A stretch of 64,000 nt of DNA from Dacryopinax spathularia (taxonomy: Eukaryota > Basidiomycota > Dacrymycetes > Dacrymycetales > Dacrymycetaceae): positions 682,001 to 746,000 of the forward strand of contig JBBPFI010000018.1 of NCBI GenBank assembly GCA_037974965.1, in the 5' to 3' direction. Position numbers and translations under genes: made by a program. The notes beneath the pieces are model-generated. The model searched no databases, was not told the origin of the DNA, and saw only the letters and a list, made by a program, of their open reading frames with translations. The stretch's first letter is position 1; each line of letters begins with the position of its first letter. Of this stretch, positions 1,723-58,000 are shown one piece after another.

Positions 1723-2608
1723 GGAAGAACATCGGTGGTTGAGAGAGGGATTGATGGCCGGAAAAGGACGTCATCTTGCACGTGTTCACCCGAGCTGGCC
1801 GCCAAAGATTGAAGGATACTCCATGTAAGGGAATCAGACGGCATCTGGGGAAAATGAGCCGCGCTTGTGATTGCTTATACGCACGGAGTCCGATCGACCG
1901 CGGTCATAAGGATCTTGGGCAAGGAGAAAACCGGATCCAAGGGTTGCACGTAGGAGATGGCCATTCTTTATAGTAGCTGTCCGCAGAGATGGCAGAGCCA
2001 AGCTTGGCGAAGACAGATCCCGAGATTGTTCCTTGACGACACCTGACTTGGACAGATACGGCTAGAAGGACAAAACCGCAAGTGTTTCCAAGTAGAATCG
2101 CTGCCAAAGCAACGTGATGTTAGCCTTCGAGGAAGGGTTGGCGCGCCGCGCCCGTACAAGCCCATGAACAGACGCTCTGCCATCCGTATCCTGCTACCTA
2201 GTCATTCTCGTGCGAGTTCTGCAAGGGCTTGTTCGCTTACCTGCTCATGACAGAGCTGCGCAAGAGAAGCTGGAGCGATAGCCGGCAGAATTGCAGAGCA
2301 TATCATGGAGGTCGCCTTGGTGCGACCGCCCTCATTTGTCCAGTCCTATGCACGCACCATCATATCCTTGCACAAGTTTCATGTATATGGCAAGCCGAGG
2401 GTTATCCAAAATGCTTTCCATAAGGTCGTCTGCACCGCATCGTGGATGATTGACCGTAGGCAGGCGGCTGCCCGTAAGAGCTGTGATGGGAAAGAGCGGA
2501 CGGCGGGACTAATCCACCGCACGTGACCAAAACAAGCTGCGGGCGCCTATCTTCCGCTAGCGCTTGATCATGCTGGTTTTTTTTGGACTATGACAACATT
2601 ATTACTGC
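1723..2608. other. Intergenic spacer between the two GH10 genes
   Basis: This stretch holds the upstream flank of GH10 copy A and the downstream flank of copy B. I see no open frame with family similarity and no repeat. Confidence 0.5.
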
Positions 2609-4217
2609 CTAGTACGTGATCGTGCACTCCTCCGTCCCAAGCGCAGTAGCACACAATTCCGGCGCACCCATCGCATACCTCGCAAACCGGGCCATAATCT
2701 CATACGTCACCGGCTTGGGATTGCCGTACATATCGAACAGCTACCCGCAGCGTCAGACTCGGTCTCACAAACACAGGAAAGTGAGAGAAGGGGGAGGGGA
2801 CGTACGGTAGCCATGGCGACTCCGTGCCCGTCTCCGGGAAGGATCCAGGAGGTGTCGTCCCTGTTGTCCCAGTTGATGAACTCGTAGCAGTTGGAAGCGT
2901 AAAGGCAGGCATCGAGGTAGTCACCTGCTCTCTCCTGTCAGCCACTTCGATCTTCTCCCGGTGTAGGAGAGGACGTACCCCAGATGGCAGCCTGGTACCG
3001 CTGGTTGAGCGTATCGTTCGCCTGGATCCAGAGATCCATCTCGGTGATCATCGCTTGGACGCCCAATTCGGCCAAACGGGCAAAAGTGGTCTCGAGCTGC
3101 GCTTTGGGCACGAAATAGTACGGCTGGGCGCCGACGTGGGATTGGAAGCCTTATTCTCCATCAGCTCCGAGTTGGAGAAAGGGATAGGAGGCGGGACGTA
3201 CCGACGGTGAGACGGTTGTACGGGATCGACGCGTTCGCGTTGAGGTCCGCAAGGAGCTTAAACACGCATCTTCCCCCTCCTATCAGCCTCCACCCTTCCA
3301 AGGTTCAAGCAAAAAAAAGGGCCAAACTCACTCAGTCTTCGCATCCTGCCCTCCGGTACTATAATCATTATACGACAACCTGGTAAACGGCCCCGCCGTC
3401 TCGAGCGCCGTCCGGAACGCCGCATACGCAAACGAGAGGTTCGTGACCAGCGGGGTGGAGCCTCCGTCGTACGTCACTGTAGGCCAGCGGTCGGCGTTCT
3501 GGACACATTCGTAGGATGTCATGTTGTATGTTGCCGTGTCGGAGATCAGTTCGTTCGTCACGTCTATCCGCAAGAGTTAGATGTGGAAGGAGCGAGAGAG
3601 GGAAGGAGGGAGGGAAGGAGAGGGGGAGAGAGAGCGTACCCCAGGAAGTGACGTTGTACCCCAAAGCGGCGATCTCCGTCCTCACGTGGGTGGGGATGAC
3701 GTTGTTCACCAAGTCGTAAGCCGTCACGTTCCCCGGCAGCCAAGACGGCAGCTGATTATGCCAGAAGGTGTTATGCCTACACGCGCCGTAAGCCCCAGTT
3801 GGCTGTTAAGAGGATGAAAGTCGGGTAAAGTGCTCACCCCCGGAACGTCGCCCCGTGCTCAGCAGCATACTGCGACACGCCCTCACACGCCTCGAGCGTG
3901 AACGTATCCCTCTCCGGCTCAGTCGCGTACCACTTACAGTCATTCTCCGCCACGACATGTCCCCAGTAAGTCAAAAACTTCTCGCTCGTCCAGTTCGCCT
4001 CGGCCGCACTGGGGTAAGAGTATGTCGAGCCCCAGTGGAATTGGGCACCCTTTCGGAGGGAGACGAGCGGGAGGAGGGAACGGACGTTGAGGGATTGGGT
4101 GAAGGATGCGTAGTAAGGGTTGTCGATTAGGAGGGAGACGTTGGGCGTTTGGGCGGTGGCGAGGGTCGCTAGTGCAACGAGCCCTGCGGCGAGGGAGGGG
4201 AGGGAGAGGACGGCCAT
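2609..4217 (-). CDS. GH10 endo-beta-1,4-xylanase-like protein, copy B
   Basis: Predicted secreted xylan-degrading enzyme of 412 residues. Exons: 4217-3838, 3776-3640, 3563-3332, 3269-3202, 3149-2979, 2924-2806, 2740-2609. The ATG at 4217 opens a clear signal peptide (MAVLSLPSLAAGLVALATLA). GH10 motifs follow: ENDCKWYATEP, HNTFWHNQLPSW, WDVTNEL (acid/base Glu), VGFQSHVG, ITEMDLW (nucleophile Glu). It is a tandem paralogue of the gene at 138-1722. The two share several intron positions, but copy B lacks the first intron of copy A and has two extra introns (3270-3331 and 2925-2978). The GH10 family includes xylanases and a few other beta-glycanases, so the substrate is inferred. Confidence 0.9.
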
Positions 4218-35368: not shown

Positions 35369-35502
35369 GACTGGACGAGAAGTGCGTCAGCGACTGCAAT
35401 GATAGTCACTATGATGCCAATGATCTACTTGGGTTTTAAGTTTCCATTTGGCTTCTGCACGAGCCCTAGTGAACGTGCTTCTGTGCTCGTCCAATTGAGT
35501 AA

Positions 35503-35966
35503 TGAACTGCTCGGTCCTATCGTAGATAGTTCCTAGAGCTTAGTTCTTTTAATGGAATATCGTTATTGGTTCTATCAAAAGGAGTGTGGTGCGAATGGAT
35601 AAGGATCGAGTGACAGTGGGCGGTAACGCCTAACAATAACGCCGATAACGATAACGAGAGTTGTGGATGCAGATCCTCTGGAGGGGAATCCAGGAAGGTG
35701 GAAAACGAAGGAGAAAGCAAGCGAGAGCAGCAGTAAAATATGAAGTGGTTGCCTGCGCAAATCTGCCAGGCACAGGCACAGGGAGCGCCTCACGTTTCAG
35801 GTGCATCCACCGTGGCACGTCGGCAGTGGGTAACGCCATGCGGTAACGCTTCGATGGCCGCTCGGCTATGGATAACGCGGGCCGGTGACGCCATATCGGC
35901 GGTATTTGGGATCGGCGATATCGGTGCTTGATAATTTGTTCTAATTAACTAACTACGAACAGTACA
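35503..35966 (-). repeat. Left LTR (3' LTR in element direction)
   Basis: 464 bp, identical by eye to 45685-46148. Contains seven TAACG words, often as GGTAACG or GATAACG. Confidence 0.95.
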
Positions 35967-36397
35967 TCCGCGGGGGACTTTTAGACAATGACTGTCCTCA
36001 GTCATCCGTCGAATGCACTGCCGTAGCCAGTCAATAAACGTCAAGATTTGTGGCGGTTCGAATTTCTTGAGGTCTTGCAATTCTCGCGTATGTTCTTCGC
36101 TGCCCATTGTGTTCGGCCGGCTGGTTTCGTTTTCGAGCGTTATCCGTCGCAGGGAAGCCTGTTCTCCGCGGGGGACTTTTTAGAATATCAACCTCCTGGT
36201 TGATAGAAAAAGAAGGCGTCCGGAAGCAATTGGTAACGGCGCGGTAGTGGCAGTGACGGCGAAAAAGGTTTTTAAACCGAGTTTAGACGCGTCTCGGAGG
36301 GTCTCACAGGTTGTCTCTGACCATAATTGTCGACTCCTCCACCGTACTCGACTCCTCGCTCCCTAGGTGACTTGTAAGAGACCTGGTCGACGACGAC

Positions 36398-38914
36398 ATG
36401 GTACCGCCATCGGTACAACGCGAGCAACGTCGGCAAACGGCGGTACTTGCGCAGAAGGCGAAAGTCGACGCATGGGTGAAGAGCTGCGTGGATCGCGCGC
36501 GCGTGCGGGCGACGTCCAAGGCGGTAGGACAGGCGATGAACGCCATGAAGATCGTCCTCGCCTATCCTAATGAAAAGAAGTGGTCCGGCATTGTAGCGTG
36601 GATGGGCGTCAAGGAGAATGCGGAGTTGCTCCGGGTGCGTATTTCGCAGGTCCATCCCGAATGAGACTAATACGTCTACAGCGTGATGTGACGGCGATTC
36701 TGCGGAAACATCCGTACACGTTGGCAGCGATCGACCAGTGGCGTGCGATGTTGCTGGGAGAGGTCACCCAGCGCATCTGGCTGGAGTATGCGAAGGAGAA
36801 TGGTAAAAAGGTGAGTACCAGTGCGCGCCGATAGATACCGCTTGCTAACGATGCGTTACAGACCGACAAGTTCGAGTTGGGCCTGAAGGGCGTAGCGACG
36901 CCTGGTGAAGAATTCGATTGGGTTGAAGAAGAAACCCTGGACGATTTTGAGGTTCCAGACCTCGATGAGGAGGATCCCGTCCAAGCCGACGAAGCGCCCG
37001 CCGCTTCAGCTGGGGAGGCGGTATCGACGATACCGACAGAATCGTCCGGCGGTAAGAAGACGGCGACAGAACCGGCGCCCGCCGAAGAGGAGACGCCTGC
37101 GGCGAAGAAGGCGCCCGCCAAGGGAAAGGGAAAGGAAGTTTCCCGGCCGAAGGAGGTGACAAAGGAGAAGGAGAAGGAGAAGGAGAAGGATAAGGAGAAG
37201 GAGAAGGGAGTCGCGGATGAGGAGGTGGCGAAGAAACGCCAAACTCGGGCATCCGTGAAGGCCGTAGCGGAGGCGACTGCCGAGGTGGATGAGAAGCGGC
37301 GCAACGAGCTGCTGCAGAAGCGGAGAGAGGAGGCAGCGGTGGAGAACGCCAAGGCGCCGCCTGCGATAGGCTCGGGCACGCCCGGCAAAAGGGTGAGTGC
37401 TTTTTTCTTGCTCCGTGCGTTATCGTCGGTATTGATCATCGCCAGACCGCCAACAAGGGCGGTAATAGCGGTACCTCCGCGAAGGCTGCGGTACCCGCTG
37501 CCGCTCCTGAAGCCGCTCCGGTCGTGGCGCCGCCGGCCAAGAAGACGGTGACCCCGGCCAGAAAGCCCGTCAAGCCTGCTGCAAAGCCCCTTCCCGTTAT
37601 TTCGGACCCAATCGAAGTGCGCGCGCCGCGTGGACGAGGCCAAGAGAAGCCGGCGAGGGGAACTACGCCCGGTGGGGAGGAAACGTGGGGCGGCAAGGTA
37701 CGTCAACAAGTTAAATGATCACTTGACTTGTGTCTGATATAGGTTTCAGATCCTGCGCCCTCCGTCGGGGTATGAACTGTTCTGGACGATCCAGGGAACG
37801 CCTTGGTTCGTTACGAAGGCGGCAAAGGCGGTATGTGCGGTATTTCCTGCGGATAGATTCTTGCTAACCAGAGATGTGTAGTGCGACTATTGCAAGGATC
37901 GGAAGCAGGTCTGCCTTATTTCGCATGAGGGAGGGCAGTGCACTGCCTGCCACCTACGTCGCAAGATGTGTTCGATTGCGAAACCCGATGGTATGTGGTT
38001 TTGGTTTAGTAACGGTGATACCGCTTACTAACGATTCGTTTTGTATGGGATAGAGCGCCGCGGTCGCGTCCGGGGCGAAAAGGGAGGCGCTGATGCCAAA
38101 CGTGAGACGTCCGAGGCTGTGACCGTCGTCACAGAGAAGTTCCGCGAAGGAACAATTCAAGATGACGTTGAAGCGTTCGAATATGAGGCGACGCGCGGTA
38201 AGCGGTATGATCGCGGTAATGACTCTCGTTTCTAATCCGTTTGTAGACGCGGCCCTCGCCAATATCAACTGGTTGGTGCATCACCAACAAGTACTGAATA
38301 TGTTGCTGTCTGCCAACATGCGTCGCCTCAATCTGGCGGACAAGGACGGTTTGGAGAGCGTCCTCATGCTCAGCGCCACGGACGAGGAGATTGCCGGGGC
38401 GGCATTGACCGGGAGGAAGTTTTTCCTGGAGCCCACTAGCTTCCCGTTCCGTATTCTCACCCCGGAAGACGAGAAGAAGACGTGGAGGGAGCTCCTTGTC
38501 GACTCCGTTAAGGTCATGACCGCCAACGAGGCCGATGTCGAGTTGGACCTTACCGACACGGATACCGCCGGTAACGCTGCCGGCTCCGAAGGCCATATCC
38601 GAGAGGTCCGTCCCTCCACGAGTGGAACGAAGAGAAAGCGCGCGTCGCCCGAGCCCGGTGCAGAAGGAGAAGAGGCGGAAGAACCTCAGGAAGCGAGTGC
38701 CCGCCCCAAGCGGGTGAAGAAGTCGGTAGAGCGTTATGGCAACCCTACCGACCCGATCATCGCGGCTAAGGAGGCGAGGGAGGGAGATGAAGAACAACAG
38801 GTGGACGCTGCTTTGGAGGAGGAGTCATCAGTTGATGACTCTGATAGCGACTACGAGGTGCCTCCTCCAGGTACGGATGACTTGCGGGAAGAGGAGGGAG
38901 AGGACGAAGTGTAA
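36398..38914 (+). CDS. Accessory antisense gene of the LTR element, Zn2Cys6-type motif
   Basis: Open segments on the strand opposite gag and pol, interrupted by short gaps that look like introns (GT...AG). Visible parts, in order: a helical N-terminal segment, a long Lys/Glu/Pro/Ala-rich charged region, and a cysteine cluster at 37882-37971 with spacing C-x2-C-x6-C-x8-C-x2-C-x6-C. The cluster contains CKDRKQVC and CHLRRKMC, which matches the fungal Zn(II)2Cys6 DNA-binding motif. A helical C-terminal part and an acidic tail follow. This is not part of the normal retrotransposon protein set. Role unknown; a regulator acting on the element or its chromatin is inferred. Confidence 0.7.
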
Positions 38915-39236
38915 CGCCGTCGGTAATGCGGTATTCGTTCGTCCCGGAGCGGGGGTGTAGTTAGAATTACCCCATGGTGTATGTGTAGGATATCGTGCGG
39001 AGGAAAGAAATAGAGTGAAAATCCACTTGTGTGAACGTCTGCAAGATTGATTGAGAGGAGATGGAAGGTCGTAGTATCCAGTTTATGTCGGCATTTGCAT
39101 GAATTGGTGCCTCTTTTCTTTTTCGATTTTCTATTTGTTATGTACGGTAGGACGTCGTATATCGGATCGTCGATGGGTATAATTTAGACAGTGGTATGGG
39201 TATGGTGTCCTAGTTGCCCGCTACTCTGTTGACCGT

Positions 39237-42200
39237 CTACGGATCCCCCGAAGTCGGTTCGGGTAACGCGTTGGTATTGGCATCGGTATCCTCTGCCGTG
39301 AGACGATACGGGAGGTCTTGTAAGCGTTTCATAAGCTCATCCACTTGCGATTTGAACTCCACCCTGGTGTGAAAGGGCACCAATCTGAATCCTGCGACGG
39401 CTTGGCGTCCGATCGTACCGTCCAACTCGGCTATGGTATATGCTCCTCCACGGTTCCGTTTGATAACGACAAAAGGGCCGATATAACGCGGTAACGTTTT
39501 GTCCCGAAGGTCTCCGTCATTTCGGGAGTTGCGCAGTAGAACCAAGGAACCCGGATCATACGATACGTCACGAATGAGGTTTGCATACTTCTTGCGGAAC
39601 CGTTCCGCTGAGTGTTCTCGAGCCAGGAGTATTTTCTCATGAATGCGGGCAAGGTCCTCCGGTCTTCGCTCTAGTTGTCTCGCGCGTCGGGTGATTAGTT
39701 CCTCTCGTGAACATAGTTCAGACGGAGTTTGGACAAGGAAGGTAGCTTCGACCAGGTCTATAGGCAATGTTGGGTGCGTCCCGTGTGCCATATAGTATGG
39801 CGTTAACCCGGTAACGCTGCTGAGCGTTACGCGTTCGGCCCAGAATATGGTAGGGAGGATCGCCGGCCATCCCCCTATGTTGCCTTGTGCCGCTCGTACA
39901 ATACTTTCTCGTACTCCGCGGTGGGATTGTTCGACTAACCCGTTCGCTCGAGAGTTGTAGCCCGATATGCAGATGTGGGATATCGCGTATTTTTGCGTTA
40001 GCGTCGAAAGCGCGTTAACCCATGGAGTACCGTTGTCGGTGACGATTTCATATACAGTTCCCCACCGGCATAAGAGCGTATTGAAAATGAAATCGGCCAA
40101 GTTTTTTCCACTTTCATTCCGTAACATACACCATTCTGGATAGTGCGTTAATGAACATCGGGCTTGTGCAATGTATCGGTACCCCGCTTTCGGCGTTTTC
40201 GAAATGGGCATAAGCATGGTATCACAGTATGCTTTTCCGAACAGTTTCGCAGGCGTCTGAACAGTTGGGGGGAGGAGGACCCTCGTTGTTTGTTGTTGTT
40301 GACACGATAGACAGGTTTTGATATACCAGGCTATGTCCTCCGCCATCCGTGGCCACCAGAATCGTAGCATAAGATGTGCTCGGATTGTCCTTAGTCCTTT
40401 ATGTCCTAGCTCGTCATGGGCCATGCGTAACGCCCGGTACCGCCGCTCGTACGGTAGATATAAGAGGTGGTTACCGTTGTCGTCCCTCTTATATAATTCC
40501 CCATTATTTCCTATGAAAAATCGCGCCGATATTTTCAGTATTCTTCGCCATTCCTTGTCAGACGTGTCCTCAGGTCGTTTCAATGTACGCTGGTATTCGA
40601 TAATCTTCTGAATATCCGTGTCCATCTTGGCGGCGTTAGAGGAAAGCGGTAAGAATGCCGAACTCGGCGTTATTGAATCGTTGCTCTCCGGTGGGCCGTG
40701 TTCCGCTACCACCATCGGTACGTCAGATGAGTGACCCTCTGTGGCCCAGGGGAGTTCTCGTTCCTGCCACACTACTGGGCTATCCGGCGGCGTGGTTAAT
40801 GGGGACGATATGTAGTGGCCCTCATCCACATCGTGTAGGCGCTGGTCCGGTAAGGAGGGAGTTTCACTCGTTGGAGATTGAGGGGGCGTCGTAAGCGGCG
40901 ATAACGGTGCGTTATCCGTCTTCTCGTGCGGCAGGTCACCCTCTTCGGGCCAGAAAAAGACAGGCACTCCAGGCCTGGGAAGGGGGGGACGGCGGGGAAA
41001 GGTCAACGATAGATAAAGAAATAGAGCAGGTGTCGTTGACAGGTTGAGGGTGTCTTCGTCATATTCAGGGACGTCCTCTTGAGTGGGATCCGTGGTGGTA
41101 GGTGGGCGGCGGGAGAGACCATCCGGGGCGGTATGCTTTTCCGCAGGGACGTGAACGAGGTCAAAGTTAAACAAGGCGATGTACGCCAGCCAACGATTGA
41201 TGGTAGTATTGGGCTGGATATCAGGGTGACGGATCATGCCTTTCAGATATTGGGCATCAACCTCTAGAGTGAAGGTAGAGAGGCCGATGAGCCAAACGCG
41301 GTAAGCTTTTAAGGCACGGAAAAGTCCGTAGCATTCCAGCTTCGCCTGAGAATAGCGGCTCTCTCGATCATTCCACGTAATGGAACCGAATCGGGAGGGT
41401 CGTCGGCGCCCGGTGTCGTCGAGTTGATATAAGACAAAACCGACTGCGATAGACGAGGAGTCAACCGCAAAGATAACGCGATTAGGGGAGGCGTAATCGA
41501 TTGGGCGGAGGACGTTATTTTCTAACGCCTGCTGAGCCGCCGCTTGGAGGGTGCGGACCGCGGTAAGATGGATGTCGTTAAAGTGGAACGGCACGTTTTT
41601 CTTTTTGAGCTCCTCAAGAGGGCGTGCGATATGTGCGTAGTTGCGGATGAACGTCCGCATAATCCCGACCGTACCAAGGAAAGAAAGAACTTCGGAAATG
41701 TTTTCACAAGGGAGTTTCCAGTCCAAGATCTTTTGGCTTTTGGAAGGGTCGGGTTGGCGACCGGCGTAGGAGCAGCGGTGACCAAGGAGAATGATTTCCG
41801 GCACAGCGATCTCAACCTTTGCACCGGACAGTGTCGCGCCAGAATGTTCGATGCGTGTGAGAATGCGATGGACGTCCCCCAGATGCTCCCAGATAAAACG
41901 GCGGATTCCTGCGTTATGGGCGGTAGTTTCATAGGTACCGTCCGCTCGCTCGTATCGCGTTGGTGGTCCTTTGATACCGCCGTCGTCAATGAAAGGTGTT
42001 GTGATGTGCGGTATCTCTGGTTCGAGTATGAATGTGACGTTATCCTGCATGATGCCCGGCATATTATGGGCTCCCATGGGGGCGACGCAGTAACGGAGTG
42101 GGCCGAGAGGGGACTGAAAAGTGGTAAGGTCCCGGGAAGATGGAGCCAACTTGTGCTGTTCAAACCCGCGGAAGAAGTCGATGAGGGAGTAACAAGCGCG

Positions 42201-42536
42201 GCCCCCATAGGACTCGATGAGGTGTTCGGTAAGAGGCGGTACCGAAGAACTTTTGATCATGACGCCATTAAGAGGTTGTAGATTTATGACTGGACGCAAG
42301 TCTCCGTTCTTCTTTAGCACGACGAACCATGTTGAGCGATATGCTGACTGTGCCGGTTCGTATGCACCGGCCTGGATCTTTTCACGGATAGTAGAGATAA
42401 CTCTTTCGACTAACGCGGGCGGTATCGGTAAGTTGCGGTCTTGCCAGGGGGTATGTTCGATCGTGGGGAAGACCACAGGGTCGAAATAGTCGTCTCTGAA
42501 GCGACCGATTTCCACTTCTTCCCACGAGAAGGCCAT
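39237..42536 (-). CDS. pol region of the Ty3/Gypsy element (RT, RNase H, integrase)
   Basis: A long open region. Reverse transcriptase blocks include VINLQPLN, the FQSPLGPLRY block and FIDD at the catalytic box. RNase H follows with FAVDSSSIAVG. Integrase has the HHCC zinc finger (HDELGHKG, CLSCQQQ) and the catalytic-core segments around YCDTM, TDNGTPW and NGLVEQSHRG. A C-terminal RYIGPFVVI box (GPF/Y type) is present; no chromodomain is obvious. The order RNase H then integrase defines Ty3/Gypsy. Confidence 0.95.
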   Translation of the reverse strand: MAFSWEEVEIGRFRDDYFDPVVFPTIEHTPWQDRNLPIPPALVERVISTIREKIQAGAYEPAQSAYRSTWFVVLKKNGDLRPVINLQPLNGVMIKSSSVPPLTEHLIESYGGRACYSLIDFFRGFEQHKLAPSSRDLTTFQSPLGPLRYCVAPMGAHNMPGIMQDNVTFILEPEIPHITTPFIDDGGIKGPPTRYERADGTYETTAHNAGIRRFIWEHLGDVHRILTRIEHSGATLSGAKVEIAVPEIILLGHRCSYAGRQPDPSKSQKILDWKLPCENISEVLSFLGTVGIMRTFIRNYAHIARPLEELKKKNVPFHFNDIHLTAVRTLQAAAQQALENNVLRPIDYASPNRVIFAVDSSSIAVGFVLYQLDDTGRRRPSRFGSITWNDRESRYSQAKLECYGLFRALKAYRVWLIGLSTFTLEVDAQYLKGMIRHPDIQPNTTINRWLAYIALFNFDLVHVPAEKHTAPDGLSRRPPTTTDPTQEDVPEYDEDTLNLSTTPALFLYLSLTFPRRPPLPRPGVPVFFWPEEGDLPHEKTDNAPLSPLTTPPQSPTSETPSLPDQRLHDVDEGHYISSPLTTPPDSPVVWQERELPWATEGHSSDVPMVVAEHGPPESNDSITPSSAFLPLSSNAAKMDTDIQKIIEYQRTLKRPEDTSDKEWRRILKISARFFIGNNGELYKRDDNGNHLLYLPYERRYRALRMAHDELGHKGLRTIRAHLMLRFWWPRMAEDIAWYIKTCLSCQQQQTTRVLLPPTVQTPAKLFGKAYCDTMLMPISKTPKAGYRYIAQARCSLTHYPEWCMLRNESGKNLADFIFNTLLCRWGTVYEIVTDNGTPWVNALSTLTQKYAISHICISGYNSRANGLVEQSHRGVRESIVRAAQGNIGGWPAILPTIFWAERVTLSSVTGLTPYYMAHGTHPTLPIDLVEATFLVQTPSELCSREELITRRARQLERRPEDLARIHEKILLAREHSAERFRKKYANLIRDVSYDPGSLVLLRNSRNDGDLRDKTLPRYIGPFVVIKRNRGGAYTIAELDGTIGRQAVAGFRLVPFHTRVEFKSQVDELMKRLQDLPYRLTAEDTDANTNALPEPTSGDP

Positions 42537-42934
42537 TTCATGTGTCCGGAGAACCCATGCCGCCAGTTTGACTTCCTCCGGCCATAGGAAACCGTATTTG
42601 TTAATGCCAAGGGCTTCGTAACGCTCCTGCGTTAATCGAATGCCAGGTGTAAAGGACGGTGGTTGGTGCGGTAATGGAAGCAGGCCTTGTAAAGGGTCCG
42701 AAGGGAATCGGCGATGTATTTTGAGCTCTTCCGGGTGGGTAGTTGCTACTGGTTTAACTCGATGCTCAACCTTTTTGTATTTTCTGAGGGCCAGGCAGTG
42801 TAGCCGCTCGTCGTATGTGTACGTGCGCTGTAACGCGGTTACCGTCGGTAGGATCGTTAACGCTGGTGGGGGTATCGAGTTTACCGGCGTTGTGGTAAGG
42901 AAAATGTCTCCTCGGGCTGAACCCGACTCCTCGA

Positions 42935-45658
42935 CTAATGAAAATCCGCAGGTGCGACGGAGTCACCAGGAGGATTGAGAGCAAGCGCCGGATTTGCTTG
43001 TATGAAGGCCGCTGTATCCTCTGCGTTCTCCGAAGGGTCTGCCTGACGGGGTTTCCAGGGCCGAGCACCGATCGTAACGCGGGTATCGGTATTGGGACAT
43101 TTCAGCGTTAACTGCATTTCTCCTGAAGTCCCGTCGAACGTTTGACATTGCAACAATGTCAGGAAGGGGCGTCCGAGAAGAATATGGAAAGGAGATTCTT
43201 TCACGATATGGACTTGTAATAGGAAAACGATCGGTCTGATGGTCACACGTAGGTTGCGGATACAGCCTAACGTCATTTCGGATTGGCTGTTGGCGGATTC
43301 CATCTGTATGGTATCGTCCGGTAAGAATGGGATCCGTAGTCGCTTCCAGGCATGAAAGTTGATAGCAACAATCACCGACCCCGAGTCAATACAACCGGTC
43401 ATGGGGATGTCAACATCTCCAACCAGTAAATCGATTTCTCGTAACGCCACGAGTCGTTTTCCTACGATAACGCCCGACGGGCTGTCGATGGCTCCCGACA
43501 CATGTAATGCTTGTGCGAGCGTCGGTACTCCGTCGAGCGTTACCGTGTTCTCCTGACTTGGCTGAACATTCCCAGATGTACTGCCTAACTCGGGATGACC
43601 AAAGGTCAGAACGTGGTCACCCGTCTTCGGTACCCGTTTGACTCCCGACTGGTAATGCAGCATCTTCCGTACTTCTCCGGATACCGCCATGAGTCCGCGT
43701 AATGTCAGATTAATCGGTACATCCAAGGTTTGATCGAGGACGCGGCGGACTACTTCGTCGTTCTCGATAGGGGCTCGGAGCTGGGAACGTGACTCTGGTT
43801 TGGAATTTGACTCCTCCAGAGGGGAGTCCTCAGTAGATCGTTCCGGGCGTGGTAATAGTCGTTCGGGAGTCGGTACCGAGGCGGTACCGTCTGCTTCTGA
43901 GTCGCGCGGTTGTAGTGGTTTGCCGAGATATTTGGTGGGAAACGGGCGACCAACAGGTTTACCTTTCTTCCGGATATTTGATATTTCGGCTTGTAAGACG
44001 TGTATCCGTTGAAGATCGCTAGCAGAAAGGATATTCTCCTGATTATCGGTACTCGGCGTTATGTCTGCGTTTGGCGTATCGAAAGTAAAGGCCTGAACCG
44101 GTGCCGCTCGCGTCGTGAGGAGGTTTACTGGGGCACTGGGGCGCGTTGGTATTCCGGCTTGCGCATTAAGTTCTGCGGTCGTATTGCCGGGGTATTGGCG
44201 ATGCCATTGTAGGACTCTTTCTTTAAGCGTTCGGGCTTGAATGTACCCGGGAACGTATCGTCCGGTAGGTAGAACTAGTCGGCCCTCTGCGTTCCGAATT
44301 ACGAGTCCTTGTCGGATGTGTTCCTCCGCATCGGGGCATTGATTTACCATATGAGGTCCGTCGCACCAGATACACCCAGTCGAGCGGGGTGGAATACCGC
44401 CGTTACCTTGAGCGTTATATGCCGGTACCGGTCGGGATTGGGGTGGAGTGTTGCCTTGATATATTCCTTGTCGGGGAGCCGACTGGCCTTGCTGGAGGAG
44501 GGTATGGACAGCGTTGGTCAGTGTGTTCAGATTCGATACCATGGATGCGAATGCGTCCGATTCCTCTGTTTTGATTTTCACTGTCGGTTCGATTTGATGA
44601 GTCGTTGTCCCGTCGGATAACGCAATGACCGGTGCCTCTGCAGAGGTATCACCCAGGAGCCAGTTTGCAGCTTGAAGAACGTGTTCCATTGGGTAGGGGT
44701 CGTCAGGATAATTGTCGGGGAACTTAATCTGCAGACGATGCTTAAGTCTTTCGCGGAACACCGGATGAAATCCGCGGAGAAATTCTCGATCGCGTTCAAG
44801 GACGGAAATCCGGTCTTTCCGTAGTAACCAGGAAGCAATCCTTGTGAATTCGCGGTTGTACTCGCCCAACTGGCCTCGGTGGCTCATAGGAATCGTAGCA
44901 GAGCGGTTTACCAGGTCTTCCAGGTTCGTTCGGGAATACCGCCTTTCGTCGGTATCGGCGCCAGGATATAACGCCAACACTTCACGCTTGAATCGGTCGT
45001 AGTCGCCACCCGTGAATGACGCCAGGCTCCGCCATGTCTCCTCGACTGTCCCCGGTGGATATCGCACCGACGCTAGGATTCTGTCTTGTCCCCGCAGGCC
45101 GCAGGCATCTGCACACTGTTCGTAGTCTTCAAAGTACCGCCGCACGTCGGTAGGGTTCGTCGAAGCAAAGTACGGAGCGTCCCGGCTATTTCGGAGGGGC
45201 ATTTGCCTTCGGGGAGGGCGCTCCTGGACTGGTGGTCCTTCTGCTTCCTGATCGAGTGGGTCCATGTTGCTGCGGAGTTCTAACTGGCCGGCTAACTCTG
45301 ATGCGAGGTTAACAACCGAAGGGTCCGGTAATTGATGTAAACGTTGTTCTAGGAGAGTGGATAAGCGGGTCGCTGAACTGTCGGCCGAAGTCGTGTCAGT
45401 GGAGCTCCCTTCTTCCTGATCCAGGGTATCTCGAGTCGCCCGAGTTCGGTTCGGTTCTATCGGGGAGACGACAATCGGGGCGGTATCGTGGGCGGTATCA
45501 ACGAGCGGTAATTCCGGGGCCGAATCGATAGGTTGAAGGAAATCCGCGGTCCTCTCCGGGGACGGGTAGTAGCGTCGACGTGTTTTGACAATGGCGGGCG
45601 ATAACGATAAACAAGCGAGTTTTTTGTTATACCGACACTGGCAGTTTTGAAGAACCAA
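42935..45658 (-). CDS. gag-protease region of the Ty3/Gypsy element
   Basis: A long open region. The N-terminal and middle parts resemble retrotransposon Gag (a helical capsid-like part around DRFKREVLALYPG). A single CxxC-type knuckle, CIWCDGPHMVNQCP, matches CX2CX4HX4C. Near the C-terminus CIDSGSVIVAI is the aspartic protease active site (DSG). It lies upstream of pol in element direction, as expected. Confidence 0.9.
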   Translation of the reverse strand: MVLQNCQCRYNKKLACLSLSPAIVKTRRRYYPSPERTADFLQPIDSAPELPLVDTAHDTAPIVVSPIEPNRTRATRDTLDQEEGSSTDTTSADSSATRLSTLLEQRLHQLPDPSVVNLASELAGQLELRSNMDPLDQEAEGPPVQERPPRRQMPLRNSRDAPYFASTNPTDVRRYFEDYEQCADACGLRGQDRILASVRYPPGTVEETWRSLASFTGGDYDRFKREVLALYPGADTDERRYSRTNLEDLVNRSATIPMSHRGQLGEYNREFTRIASWLLRKDRISVLERDREFLRGFHPVFRERLKHRLQIKFPDNYPDDPYPMEHVLQAANWLLGDTSAEAPVIALSDGTTTHQIEPTVKIKTEESDAFASMVSNLNTLTNAVHTLLQQGQSAPRQGIYQGNTPPQSRPVPAYNAQGNGGIPPRSTGCIWCDGPHMVNQCPDAEEHIRQGLVIRNAEGRLVLPTGRYVPGYIQARTLKERVLQWHRQYPGNTTAELNAQAGIPTRPSAPVNLLTTRAAPVQAFTFDTPNADITPSTDNQENILSASDLQRIHVLQAEISNIRKKGKPVGRPFPTKYLGKPLQPRDSEADGTASVPTPERLLPRPERSTEDSPLEESNSKPESRSQLRAPIENDEVVRRVLDQTLDVPINLTLRGLMAVSGEVRKMLHYQSGVKRVPKTGDHVLTFGHPELGSTSGNVQPSQENTVTLDGVPTLAQALHVSGAIDSPSGVIVGKRLVALREIDLLVGDVDIPMTGCIDSGSVIVAINFHAWKRLRIPFLPDDTIQMESANSQSEMTLGCIRNLRVTIRPIVFLLQVHIVKESPFHILLGRPFLTLLQCQTFDGTSGEMQLTLKCPNTDTRVTIGARPWKPRQADPSENAEDTAAFIQANPALALNPPGDSVAPADFH

Positions 45659-45684
45659 TAAGATATCCCAGCACGACCTCCAAA

Positions 45685-46148
45685 TGAACTGCTCGGTCCT
45701 ATCGTAGATAGTTCCTAGAGCTTAGTTCTTTTAATGGAATATCGTTATTGGTTCTATCAAAAGGAGTGTGGTGCGAATGGATAAGGATCGAGTGACAGTG
45801 GGCGGTAACGCCTAACAATAACGCCGATAACGATAACGAGAGTTGTGGATGCAGATCCTCTGGAGGGGAATCCAGGAAGGTGGAAAACGAAGGAGAAAGC
45901 AAGCGAGAGCAGCAGTAAAATATGAAGTGGTTGCCTGCGCAAATCTGCCAGGCACAGGCACAGGGAGCGCCTCACGTTTCAGGTGCATCCACCGTGGCAC
46001 GTCGGCAGTGGGTAACGCCATGCGGTAACGCTTCGATGGCCGCTCGGCTATGGATAACGCGGGCCGGTGACGCCATATCGGCGGTATTTGGGATCGGCGA
46101 TATCGGTGCTTGATAATTTGTTCTAATTAACTAACTACGAACAGTACA
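45685..46148 (-). repeat. Right LTR (5' LTR in element direction)
   Basis: 464 bp, identical by eye to 35503-35966. Confidence 0.95.
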
Positions 46149-46604
46149 GTAAATAACGTGGAAGTTAATCCGACCAGGCTTCCGAATGGTGCGATTATCC
46201 CGGATAGGAGGCATGTCAGTGTGCTGGCAGTGCTACAAGATGCTGGAAGCACGATAACAGAAGAAACGAAGACCGACTCTTTACCCAGGAATAGTTCCCG
46301 GATCCGCGGAAGACACCGTGCACCGCGTGTGCGATGCGCTCGTCACTGATGTTTACGCGTGCTGTACCTTGTCGCGACCATCTGCTGGTTCTGTCTGCGT
46401 ACGCTGAGGCAACTGTTCTCCGGTACTGCCAACGATGTCAGGCCACTCAGACCATAAGACCGCACTCTGTGCATATGGACTGGCTTCGCACGTTTGGAAG
46501 AAGCAATTCTCAGCATTGTCTATAAAAACTACGCCAGTGAAGGCCTGGTAGTCCCAGGCGCAGGTACTGCCTCGGAGGTGTCAAGCGTTGCTCTCTGTTC
46601 CACG
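46149..46604. other. Upstream region of lipase 2
   Basis: Host sequence resumes after the LTR. It contains the lipase 2 TATA box at 46521 and no gene. Confidence 0.5.
46521..46527 (+). promoter_or_regulatory. TATA box of lipase 2
   Basis: TATAAAA lies 84 bp upstream of the ATG at 46605. Confidence 0.65.
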
Positions 46605-55070: not shown

Positions 55071-58000
55071 ATGTCCTCTTCTTTCTGGAACTGGTACTCG
55101 TATATACCCTCAATCCGACTTCCATCATTCAATGTACCGGCTCAGATTCAGAATCGTCTCTTATCATTCGCCATTCGCAGGTCGATAGGCCACCTGTTAA
55201 AGAGGGGCGGGGTCGAGATCGACAAGCTTGACACGCAAGTGGGTAGAGGATGGGTCGAGGTCAAGGATGTGGAGCTCGAGGAAGAGGTGCGCTTCGGTAT
55301 TTGACACAAGAGCATTGCTGAAGAGTGCGCAGGCTATCAATGCTCTCATTCCGGGATTACCGATACGGCTCACATCGTCACACCTAGCGTCCCTATCGTT
55401 CAGCTTGCCCGGGCTCCTGACCGCTCCCATATCCCTAAACCTCTCTGGACTATCACTCTCATTCACATTGTCACCGGTTGCACCTTCCGATGTGGCAGCA
55501 CAACCCGATCTTGCTCAGAGCGTCACCGAGTTCGTGGGAGAAGCCATGGCGGAGGACGAGGAAGGCAGAGCGCTGCGGAGAGACCTGGAAGCGTCCATAA
55601 TGGAGACCGCTGTTCCGCCAACCATTCGTGGACCACGCAGTCCGGGTACATCGCCAGTACGGACTGAGCTACCTGGCTCTATCGACCCCTTTCTCGCAGC
55701 CAACGAGCCTTTCGACGCCTCTGCCTCGTTCATCGCAGCCGACGTTCTTGAAGAGTCGAACGAACCTCCGGCAATGTCCATTCTCACTTCGATCGTATCT
55801 CGTCTCGTGTCCCGATTCTCGGCAAAACTGTCAGACGTGACTATCCGCATCCTGGATCCCAAGGCTGGCTCGGAATGGGTCTTCACCCTGGGAGAAGCTG
55901 GGTACGAAGGTCTACAACGGGAGACGGAAGGTGAGGCTGGTGGCCGCGCATACATGAGGGATCTCCGGCTGTTTGCGGAACGGCTATCTGAAGGCAACAG
56001 CTCTGGATCTGACGACGATACACCGCTGGCGAGCAGCATCGAACCAGATGAGAGCATGTATGCGTCCGCATTGGACAGCTTGCCGGACACGTCTCAGTCA
56101 TTGCTGTCAACTGAATCTCCGGATCCCACTCCATCGATGGCGAAGATACTTCCCATCTTATATGTCCCAAATCTGGATGCGGAACTGTCTACCTCTCTTC
56201 TGCCGGCGGCTTCTGCTCTTGCTCGCCAAACTTCGATATCAGTCGACCTCCTGGAGGTGCGAGCAGGTGTCACCCCTGAGGTAGTGAAGCTCGCTCTTTC
56301 TACCGTGTCGCAAGTCTCGAACACACCAACTCAGGAGAAGGGTGCCCCTGCTAAACTCACAGAACCAGTCTCGCCCCTTGGCCTGAACGCCGAGCTCAAG
56401 CTCGCTAATTGCTCTATCTTCATCATCCCCGAACCGACTCTAGCTTTGGACGCATTCTATGACGATTCATTCCAACCACGTGCCCCGCATCTGCTCGCAT
56501 CCCTCTCTACCCTGTTCGCTCAATTCTCCACCTCTTCGGGTTCTGCCTTCATTCCTGCTTCATCACCACCAACAGCGGCTTTCAGCTCTCCAGGCTCGGC
56601 CACGCAACGCCGGACATCCTACACTTCTGGCCGCGCCCGCTCAGGCCGTACGAGGCAGCCGAAGCGGAGCATAGACTGCACCATCGAGAACCTCACCGTC
56701 GGATGGCGGTCACCTATGGACTCAGAATCATACGATATCGTCGCCTTTTCAGAAGCGCTGGTCGACCCCTACCCGTCGGGCAAGGCTTTGTTCCCGACCT
56801 TTGTACCATCCCCATGGGCACCGGCTCCAGCTCGGACCTCTACAGCAGCGGTCATTCGAGTTCGACATGAGTTCGCTGTGCCGGCTGAAGGTGCCGGAGA
56901 CGCCGTTGCCGACACTACAACTGTGGAAGTTGTGCCCCTGGAGTTACGTCTAGATCTCAGCTTGGTGGAGCGATTCGTGCCTTTCATCGATGTGCTCAAG
57001 AGTGATATGGACAGCTTCGCTCCACAGAATACGCAGGCACTGGAGAAGCGCCGCTCAAAGCCAGTCGGCAGTGCAGGTCGGATGAAGGACCTTCTGAGTG
57101 ACTTGGAGAACGACCAAGAGGTACGTTTTAGCGCGGTCAGAGTGGTGCATATAGCTCACTCTAGTTGCAGAATGTTCCTCCACCAACCTTCCTCCTTACC
57201 ATGGCCTTCGTACGGATCCTGCTCCGCCCTCCTCCCATACCTCCGGCAACGGAACTTCGTTCGGGCACGATGATCGTGGATCTCCACTCTCTCCGATCTG
57301 TGCAAGGCGAAGCAGAGCCCGTCAGGGAGACTGTTCGGTGGCATGGCAAGCGCATTGAGCGGCAGCTAATGGGAGCCGTCGAATGCAAGCGATTGATGAT
57401 CGCGTTCAATCCAGCGAATGGTAAGCAAGTTCACACTTCTAACACTCATGTTCTCACCTTGAGTCGGCAGAGCGGACCGCCCATGCCTTCATCTCGCTTA
57501 CACCTCTACTTCCTGTTTCCATCTCTCCACTTGATAACGCCGCGCCTCTGTTACCCCGGATATCCGCATATACTTCAACCACAAAGATATCCGTACCTTC
57601 GGCGTCCATCGAGGTTGACGCTAATATTCCCCAAATCCAAATCCAGCTCGGCAAGAGCTCACTGGATAGCCTGCAACTATATATCGATGATCTGGGGCAT
57701 GCGGCCGCTAGGATTCAAGCTCTTGTACCTAATTCACCTTCGAAGCCGGTCGAAGAGACGTCCGGAGGAACGGCAGCAAAGATCGTTGTCTCGGAGGGTG
57801 CGTTGCTTGTGAATCATGTGTGGTAACCATTACTGAGCAAGCTTAAGTTTCTGTCAAATTACTCATTCCTCGGGAGTACGGTGAAGTTCGGCCGCTGGAG
57901 CTGACTCTGTCCGATGTTGACGTGATTGCGGAGCTGAAGTCCAGCGAGAAGGTGCGCACTGCTTTTCAACGGCGTATCATTGACTCATCTTTTCGTAGCA

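Follow-up and report, generated by a model that had tools for sequence, protein, structure and literature searches.

What might a retrotransposon gain by repeating one short DNA word along its length while encoding, on the opposite strand, a protein with a cysteine cluster? The question is raised by a Ty3/Gypsy element on the minus strand at 35503-46148 of the window, by which we mean the whole 64-kb stretch analysed here, on contig C18 of the 29.2 Mb Dacryopinax spathularia genome. A first-pass annotation had described the element as saturated with CGGTA/TACCG words and had linked these to its accessory protein. We compared the window element and its copies (family W) with related Gypsy elements in the same genome (families A and B). 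The reading we lean towards, without great assurance, is that the protein of each family binds the word of that family throughout the family's DNA, most likely to counter silencing, much as the VANC proteins of plant transposons do.

The enrichment itself is directly established. The first-pass counts of CGGTA/TACCG, 16 in 43081-44460 and four in 55081-56460, are exact, as are its seven TAACG on the plus strand of the 464-bp long terminal repeat (LTR). Over both strands of the whole element CGGTA occurs 87 times, whereas dinucleotide and trinucleotide shuffles (300 of each) give means of 23.1 (maximum 41) and 30.2 (maximum 45). CGGTA is nonetheless only half of the word. CGTTA is equally enriched, so that the full word is GCG[G/T]TA (GCGKTA), with 89 sites (52 on the plus strand, 37 on the minus) along 35503..46148 at a mean spacing of ~120 bp; 300 shuffles of each kind give means of 11.1 (maximum 22, dinucleotide) and 13.4 (maximum 25, trinucleotide). 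By a calibrated score, in which a word must beat both the host background and its dinucleotide expectation and simple-repeat words are excluded, GCGTTA (45 sites) and GCGGTA (44 sites) are the top two 6-mers of the window copy. The first-pass argument from CGG triplets therefore fits the GCGGTA sites but not the equally common GCGTTA sites, which rule out a strict CGG requirement.

The element has the two LTRs, identical over 464 bp, the TG...CA ends and the 4-bp target-site duplication of a Ty3/Gypsy retrotransposon, and its pol domains follow the Ty3/Gypsy order of reverse transcriptase (RT), RNase H and integrase. Its parts are:

35499..35502, unstranded: left GTAA target-site duplication
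35503..35966, minus: 3' LTR, 464 bp, TG...CA ends, identical to the 5' LTR, 8 GCGKTA sites (LTR sites counted over 35501-35966)
join(36398..36634,36682..36810,36862..37392,37446..37697,37750..37830,37882..37990,38054..38197,38247..38914), plus: accessory gene, 8 exons, 716 aa, predicted model
36635..38246, plus: stretch spanning all seven introns of the accessory gene (36635-36681, 36811-36861, 37393-37445, 37698-37749, 37831-37881, 37991-38053, 38198-38246)
37882..37971, plus: six-cysteine cluster CX2CX6CX8CX2CX6C, Zn2Cys6 spacing, in exon 6
39237..42962, minus: pol (reverse transcriptase, RNase H, integrase), stop-to-stop open frame, 1241 aa
42935..45721, minus: gag and aspartyl protease region, stop-to-stop open frame, 928 aa, reaching slightly into the 5' LTR
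45685..46148, minus: 5' LTR, identical to the 3' LTR
46149..46152, unstranded: right GTAA target-site duplication

With each site assigned by its midpoint, GCGKTA density is highest in the accessory introns (9 sites, 24.6/kb; 7 sites or 19.1/kb if only those fully inside are counted), followed by the LTR (17.2/kb), pol (8.6/kb), gag (6.3/kb), other non-coding sequence (5.3/kb) and accessory exons (5.1/kb), and falls to 0.90/kb in the window flanks. In 1000 codon-preserving shuffles of each coding region, means of 3.3, 6.4 and 2.5 sites were obtained for gag, pol and the accessory coding sequence, which hold 17, 32 and 11. The claim that neither one codon habit nor one strand explains the enrichment is thus borne out, since the words exceed codon shuffles in all three coding regions and stand on both strands, in LTRs and in introns, and the shuffle controls proposed with that claim, dinucleotide and codon alike, eliminate composition or codon habit as a source. 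The presence of the word on both strands and in introns and LTRs makes DNA a more likely target than RNA or protein; a motif acting in RNA is ruled out by the two strands and by the introns of the antisense gene. A tandem-repeat search of the element found no long array of the word, and the units that hold it are only 6-15 bp in 2-3 copies, in LTRs and gag. The window copy has 14 CGKTAMCG palindromes, and some sites lie in tandem at 9, 10 or 13 bp. A first paired-word pattern gave no match, and genome-wide counts of GCGKTAHCGC were so close to those of a reversed control (152/147 and 163/162) that only local density is informative.

This distribution bears on a simpler account, in which the accessory protein, bound to the words, simply regulates transcription of its own element by activating or limiting it. 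Zn2Cys6 proteins are typically transcription regulators, the LTR is dense in the word, and the 14 palindromes look like dimer sites. However, the sites run throughout gag, pol and introns and are not gathered in the LTR, and the largest gap between them in the window copy, 368 bp, is one that only 0.4% of random placements reach (P 0.004), an evenness that weakens in a second W copy (C17) and in family A and is lost in family B. We regard ordinary regulation as unlikely, though the least so of the alternatives, and prefer coating of the element against silencing.

Comparison of copies shows that the sites are under selection as DNA. A DNA search of the genome gave six W copies including that in the window; by position they lie apart, with none nested in another. 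GCGKTA reaches 8.0-9.7/kb in 6/6 copies (that on C7 taken as two halves) compared with 0.66/kb in a host background of 143 kb from nine other contigs plus the window flanks. Relative to copies C17 and C13b, each ~83% identical to the window copy, 73/85 and 68/85 alignable sites are kept, compared with 44% of all 6-mers; relative to two 94%-identical copies the figures are 84/87 each and 74-75%. In pol, third codon positions are identical to those of an 83%-identical copy at 62 of 63 positions inside the word and at 824 of 1179 outside it (Fisher one-sided 8e-9), and in gag at 34/34 and 773/871 (Fisher one-sided 0.019). Columns also agree more often inside sites than outside in introns (81% and 52%), LTR1 (89% and 64%) and accessory exons (89% and 76%); for the remaining non-coding sequence (76% vs 72.5%) the 21 columns are too few to weigh. 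For the five core bases identity is 0.88-0.96, whereas the eight bases on each side reach 0.70-0.91. Third codon positions that are nearly frozen inside the word mean that the sites are conserved as DNA, and these data support selection on GCGKTA as DNA, third codon positions included.

The accessory gene (36398-38914) lies on the plus strand between pol and the 3' LTR that begins at 35503, antisense to gag-pol, which corrects the first-pass description. Because it is antisense, its introns would not be spliced from the genomic RNA and so would survive retrotransposition. The gene model was made by hand and reproduced by a dynamic-programming gene finder, and is predicted from sequence alone. 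All six cluster cysteines are retained in 6/6 W copies; for C15, C13a, C17 and the family B copy L039, in which automatic splicing of the cluster exon went wrong, the clusters were read from genomic DNA. Purifying selection on the protein is established by a dN/dS of 0.149 vs C13b over 713 codons, and dN/dS is 0.15-0.22 across comparisons (C13b for family W; the nested copy described below, L036 and L038 for family B). The canonical Zn2Cys6 (PF00172) spacing is CX2CX6CX(5-12)CX2CX(6-8)C; the W cluster fits it, and the A and B clusters, with longer middle loops, fall outside. For the cluster segments of W and of A, Pfam lists Zn_clus and no other family. Protein database searches gave nothing at E<=0.001 among 7993 scored candidates for the whole protein and nothing at E<=10 among 173 candidates for residues 394-520, and a sequence search of the PDB gave three chance-like hits. 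Taken together, the features suggest a cysteine-cluster protein that is probably DNA-binding.

Sister families provide an independent view of the pairing. The W copy on C7 is interrupted in its last accessory exon by a family B element at C7:1305933-1315860 (the nest), whose pol protein is 67% identical to that of W in the RT part and 53% in the integrase part. Family B comprises the nest, L036, L038 and L039, and family A is L035 only. In each of these families the antisense gene is rich in introns and encodes a cluster of six cysteines, with a longer middle loop than in W. BLASTP shows homology among the accessory proteins: A matches B both in the cluster (3e-12) and in an upstream domain (7e-10), W matches B in that upstream domain (3.5e-6), and W matches A in the region of the cluster (0.002). 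The clusters themselves have diverged among the three families. The words differ with the diverged proteins. GCGKTA is strongly enriched in neither sister (1.1/kb in A, 0.5-0.8/kb in B). Family A instead has 86 sites of CCGATA (8.6/kb), compared with 3.7 from the host and 8.4 from dinucleotide expectation, and the four B copies have 43-51 sites of CCGAAA (4.3-5.1/kb; ~4 host, 10.5 dinucleotide expectation) and a second word, TCGCGA, at 1.9-2.6/kb. CCGATA (L035) and CCGAAA (nest) remain enriched over codon shuffles in both gag and pol, as does TCGCGA in B pol; in B gag, TCGCGA shows no such excess. The own word stands in 7/8 introns of A (CCGATA/TATCGG), fully inside 5/7 introns of W, and, as CCGAAA, in 5/10, 5/10, 3/10 and 5/9 introns of the four B copies. 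Comparisons among B copies show CCGAAA retained at 42/46, 40/46 and 43/50 sites, compared with 77%, 81% and 70% of all 6-mers, and the palindrome TCGCGA, counted on both strands, at 24/24, 23/24 and 17/25. In our own alignment GCGKTA, CCGATA and CCGAAA share a CGN[T/A]A core, into which TCGCGA does not fit. The pairing of related proteins with different words suggests self-recognition. Conserved words on both strands, a cluster protein and divergence between sister families form the pattern expected of a self-targeting DNA-binding protein.

The nested copy also lends something to the notion of a role for the words in integration or genome packing, in which the protein would direct fresh insertions towards or away from existing copies, or compact the element's DNA. 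The nest belongs to another family, however, no W copy sits inside another, and nothing in the sequence demands such a role; we consider it very unlikely.

Two more distant relatives serve as controls. L037 (C1:444201-454200) is a Gypsy relative with 54% identity over the RT part and an antisense intron-bearing gene, whose model is probably incomplete at its 3' end. No cysteine cluster was found in this model, in a six-frame pattern search or in the 3' frame 2077-3069, although one split by an intron could escape, and the L037 antisense protein has no detectable homology to the W, A and B accessory proteins. Some L037 introns and intergenic parts hold TCTCGAG/CGAGATC-like words. L040 (C9:811501-816500) covers 5 kb around the pol of a distant Gypsy of 27% identity. 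The top-word score is 17.3-20.0 in the five whole W copies, 26.7 in A and 9.9-12.5 in B, and 3.6-8.1 in 15 host segments, 4.5 in L037 and 5.3 in L040. Equal word density in relatives lacking the gene had been named in the first pass as evidence against a link. In L037, with its antisense gene but no cluster detected, GCGKTA occurs at 0.8/kb, the host level, and A and B lack this word; such counts also dispose of the idea that CGGTA is common to all Gypsy relatives. The proposed link of protein and word has thus come through the tests run, families A and B having words of their own and L037 remaining at host level, while DNA binding by the protein, its binding of GCG[G/T]TA and an anti-silencing outcome are steps that we infer.

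The same controls bear on whether the words are simply an artefact of composition, mutation, codon habit or shared ancestry. Every word contains CpG, and the elements are CpG-rich (observed/expected 1.17-1.41 in W, A and B vs 0.95 in the host). L037 and L040 are CpG-rich as well (1.16 and 1.07), yet have no such words; dinucleotide, trinucleotide and codon shuffles miss the window counts and codon shuffles miss those of A. Together with the nearly frozen third positions of pol and the different words of sister families, the shuffles already contradict this explanation, which we find hardly credible. As a separate observation, the CpG excess in W, A, B, L037 and L040 is the opposite of cytosine-methylation decay.

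A subtler possibility is that a host DNA-binding or silencing factor reads each family word and that the accessory gene is unrelated. A set of host repressors could yield words that differ by family, clusters of the W word are also present beyond family W, and the binding of word by accessory protein is itself our supposition. Selection nonetheless keeps the words, which is unexpected of sites that harm the element, and words are present in all three families whose cluster proteins are homologous, whereas L037, with no cluster detected, has none above host level. A host reader therefore seems improbable to us, and binding by the element's own protein remains the preferred reading.

Several observations weigh against that preference. 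The first-pass Zn2Cys6 assignment is upheld by canonical cysteine spacing but not by score: W (12.7 bits) and A (15.3 bits) resemble fungal Zn2Cys6 regulators (Zn_clus, PF00172) in spacing and lie below the Pfam cut-off of 21 bits, and B gives no match. Two AlphaFold models, made with a binuclear zinc fold in view, are poor (mean pLDDT 62 and 49). GCGKTA does not stand alone at the top, ranking 5-18 of 280-400 6-mers with one degenerate position, and the patterns above it are mainly overlapping variants. The even spread of sites gives P 0.059 in C17 and in A and 0.43 in B. Family A also has CCGAAA at 3.4/kb, so that the A and B words overlap in part, and retention of TCGCGA between the nest and L039 (17/25) is no better than that of other 6-mers. 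In L037 pol a weak own word, ATCTCG, occurs 11 times vs 4.5 (codon-shuffle maximum 10). L040, whose best-scoring word is GCGTTA, has a mild excess of GCGKTA in its frame, 10 vs 4.2 with a codon-shuffle maximum of 10, which may or may not be chance. At least three stretches of 6-7 kb (C2:1864146-1870426, C8:796609-803674 and C9:1032824-1039180) carry alike paired GCGTTA words (GCGTTACCC...GCGTTA). They are not copies of the W element; Copia RT and RVT_1 searches found no RT in them among the matches listed. They may represent a different element that employs the word itself or borrows it. Two matching groups of three GCGTTA, at C2:469857-469892 and C2:1994657-1994692, adjoin a further element with an RT, whose RVT_1 matches lie at C2:470316 and C2:1993751 in a frame of 1511 aa. 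With such clusters outside family W, the word is not fully private. The three families with a word that were compared all come from one genome, and L035 is the only copy representing A.

With these points in view, the mechanism we propose is as follows. In a group of fungal Ty3/Gypsy elements, the strand opposite gag-pol would encode, in a gene with introns, a protein that has a cysteine cluster and probably binds DNA. This protein would recognise the family word (GCG[G/T]TA in W), kept at about one per 120 bp along the element, and would coat its own family's DNA, most likely keeping or making the chromatin accessible in the face of host silencing. Host genes would be mostly spared by such family-specific coating. 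Should the specificity of the protein shift within a family, the word would shift too, and separate protein-word pairs would arise within one genome.

The closest likeness is to the VANC proteins of Arabidopsis VANDAL elements, in which, as far as the portions available of PMC5735166 and PMC10398659 describe them, an element-encoded protein goes with a short word that its own family carries at high density and that is less frequent elsewhere. VANDAL21 has a nine-base word that is dense there, rare in other transposable elements and also present in VANC21 introns, and VANC6 words differ from those of VANC21 (PMC5735166, same portions). Related families with different words, and words inside introns of the protein's own gene, are therefore common to both systems, and W, A and B each have an own-family word that differs from those of its sisters. 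From what those portions give, the VANC system belongs to Mutator-like DNA transposons, whereas the present one is a fungal LTR retrotransposon with gag-pol; its protein has a cysteine cluster and is known from sequence alone; and its words also occupy coding sequence, third codon positions included, on both strands, scattered and with very short tandem units. Plant Gypsy elements such as Grande, RIRE2 and Retand/TRP28 have antisense additional open reading frames between pol and the 3' LTR, the position and orientation of the W accessory gene; TRP28 is predicted to bind DNA, and the function of these frames is called unknown in the parts available of PMC7264820 and PMC11963269. The W gene differs from them, as there described, in being fungal, in its many introns and cysteine cluster, and in the conserved candidate target word in its element. 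Fungal DNA transposons encode TET/JBP dioxygenases thought to counter DNA methylation (PMC12730594, in the excerpt available), which likewise places a gene thought to be anti-methylation in fungal transposons, in that case an enzyme and not a sequence-specific binder. Among the matches listed in the open PMC full-text literature, which leaves most subscription papers and bioRxiv outside, no title or abstract start reported a fungal retrotransposon whose own cluster protein targets it.

The pol frame exceeds the Pfam cut-offs for RT_RNaseH and Integrase_H2C2 and falls below that for RVT_1, and the gag region matches gag-asp_proteas weakly (E 3.4e-4, below cut-off). Among the best 120 of 655 pol relatives, those with a named organism belong to Leucocoprinus, Pleurotus, Rhodofomes and Candolleomyces, all Agaricomycetes; viral contigs searched with pol gave no confirmed match.

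The broader proposition, on which our judgement is evenly balanced, is that one fungal Gypsy lineage evolved sequence-specific anti-silencing independently of plant VANC and split within one genome into three or more protein-word pairs, the main words having CGN[T/A]A in common as their core and each family's address being written at synonymous positions of its own coding sequence. Apparent DNA-binding sites are here conserved at third codon positions over whole coding regions. If the proposition is true, transposons of separate kingdoms and classes converge on a private DNA word with a private binding protein, and such a lineage would supply a general function for the antisense accessory genes that Gypsy elements carry, a testable one for genes whose role is called unknown in the available parts of PMC7264820 and PMC11963269. 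It would also offer natural, diverging protein-DNA pairs within one genome for the study of how binding specificity evolves, and possibly tools for sequence-directed chromatin targeting.

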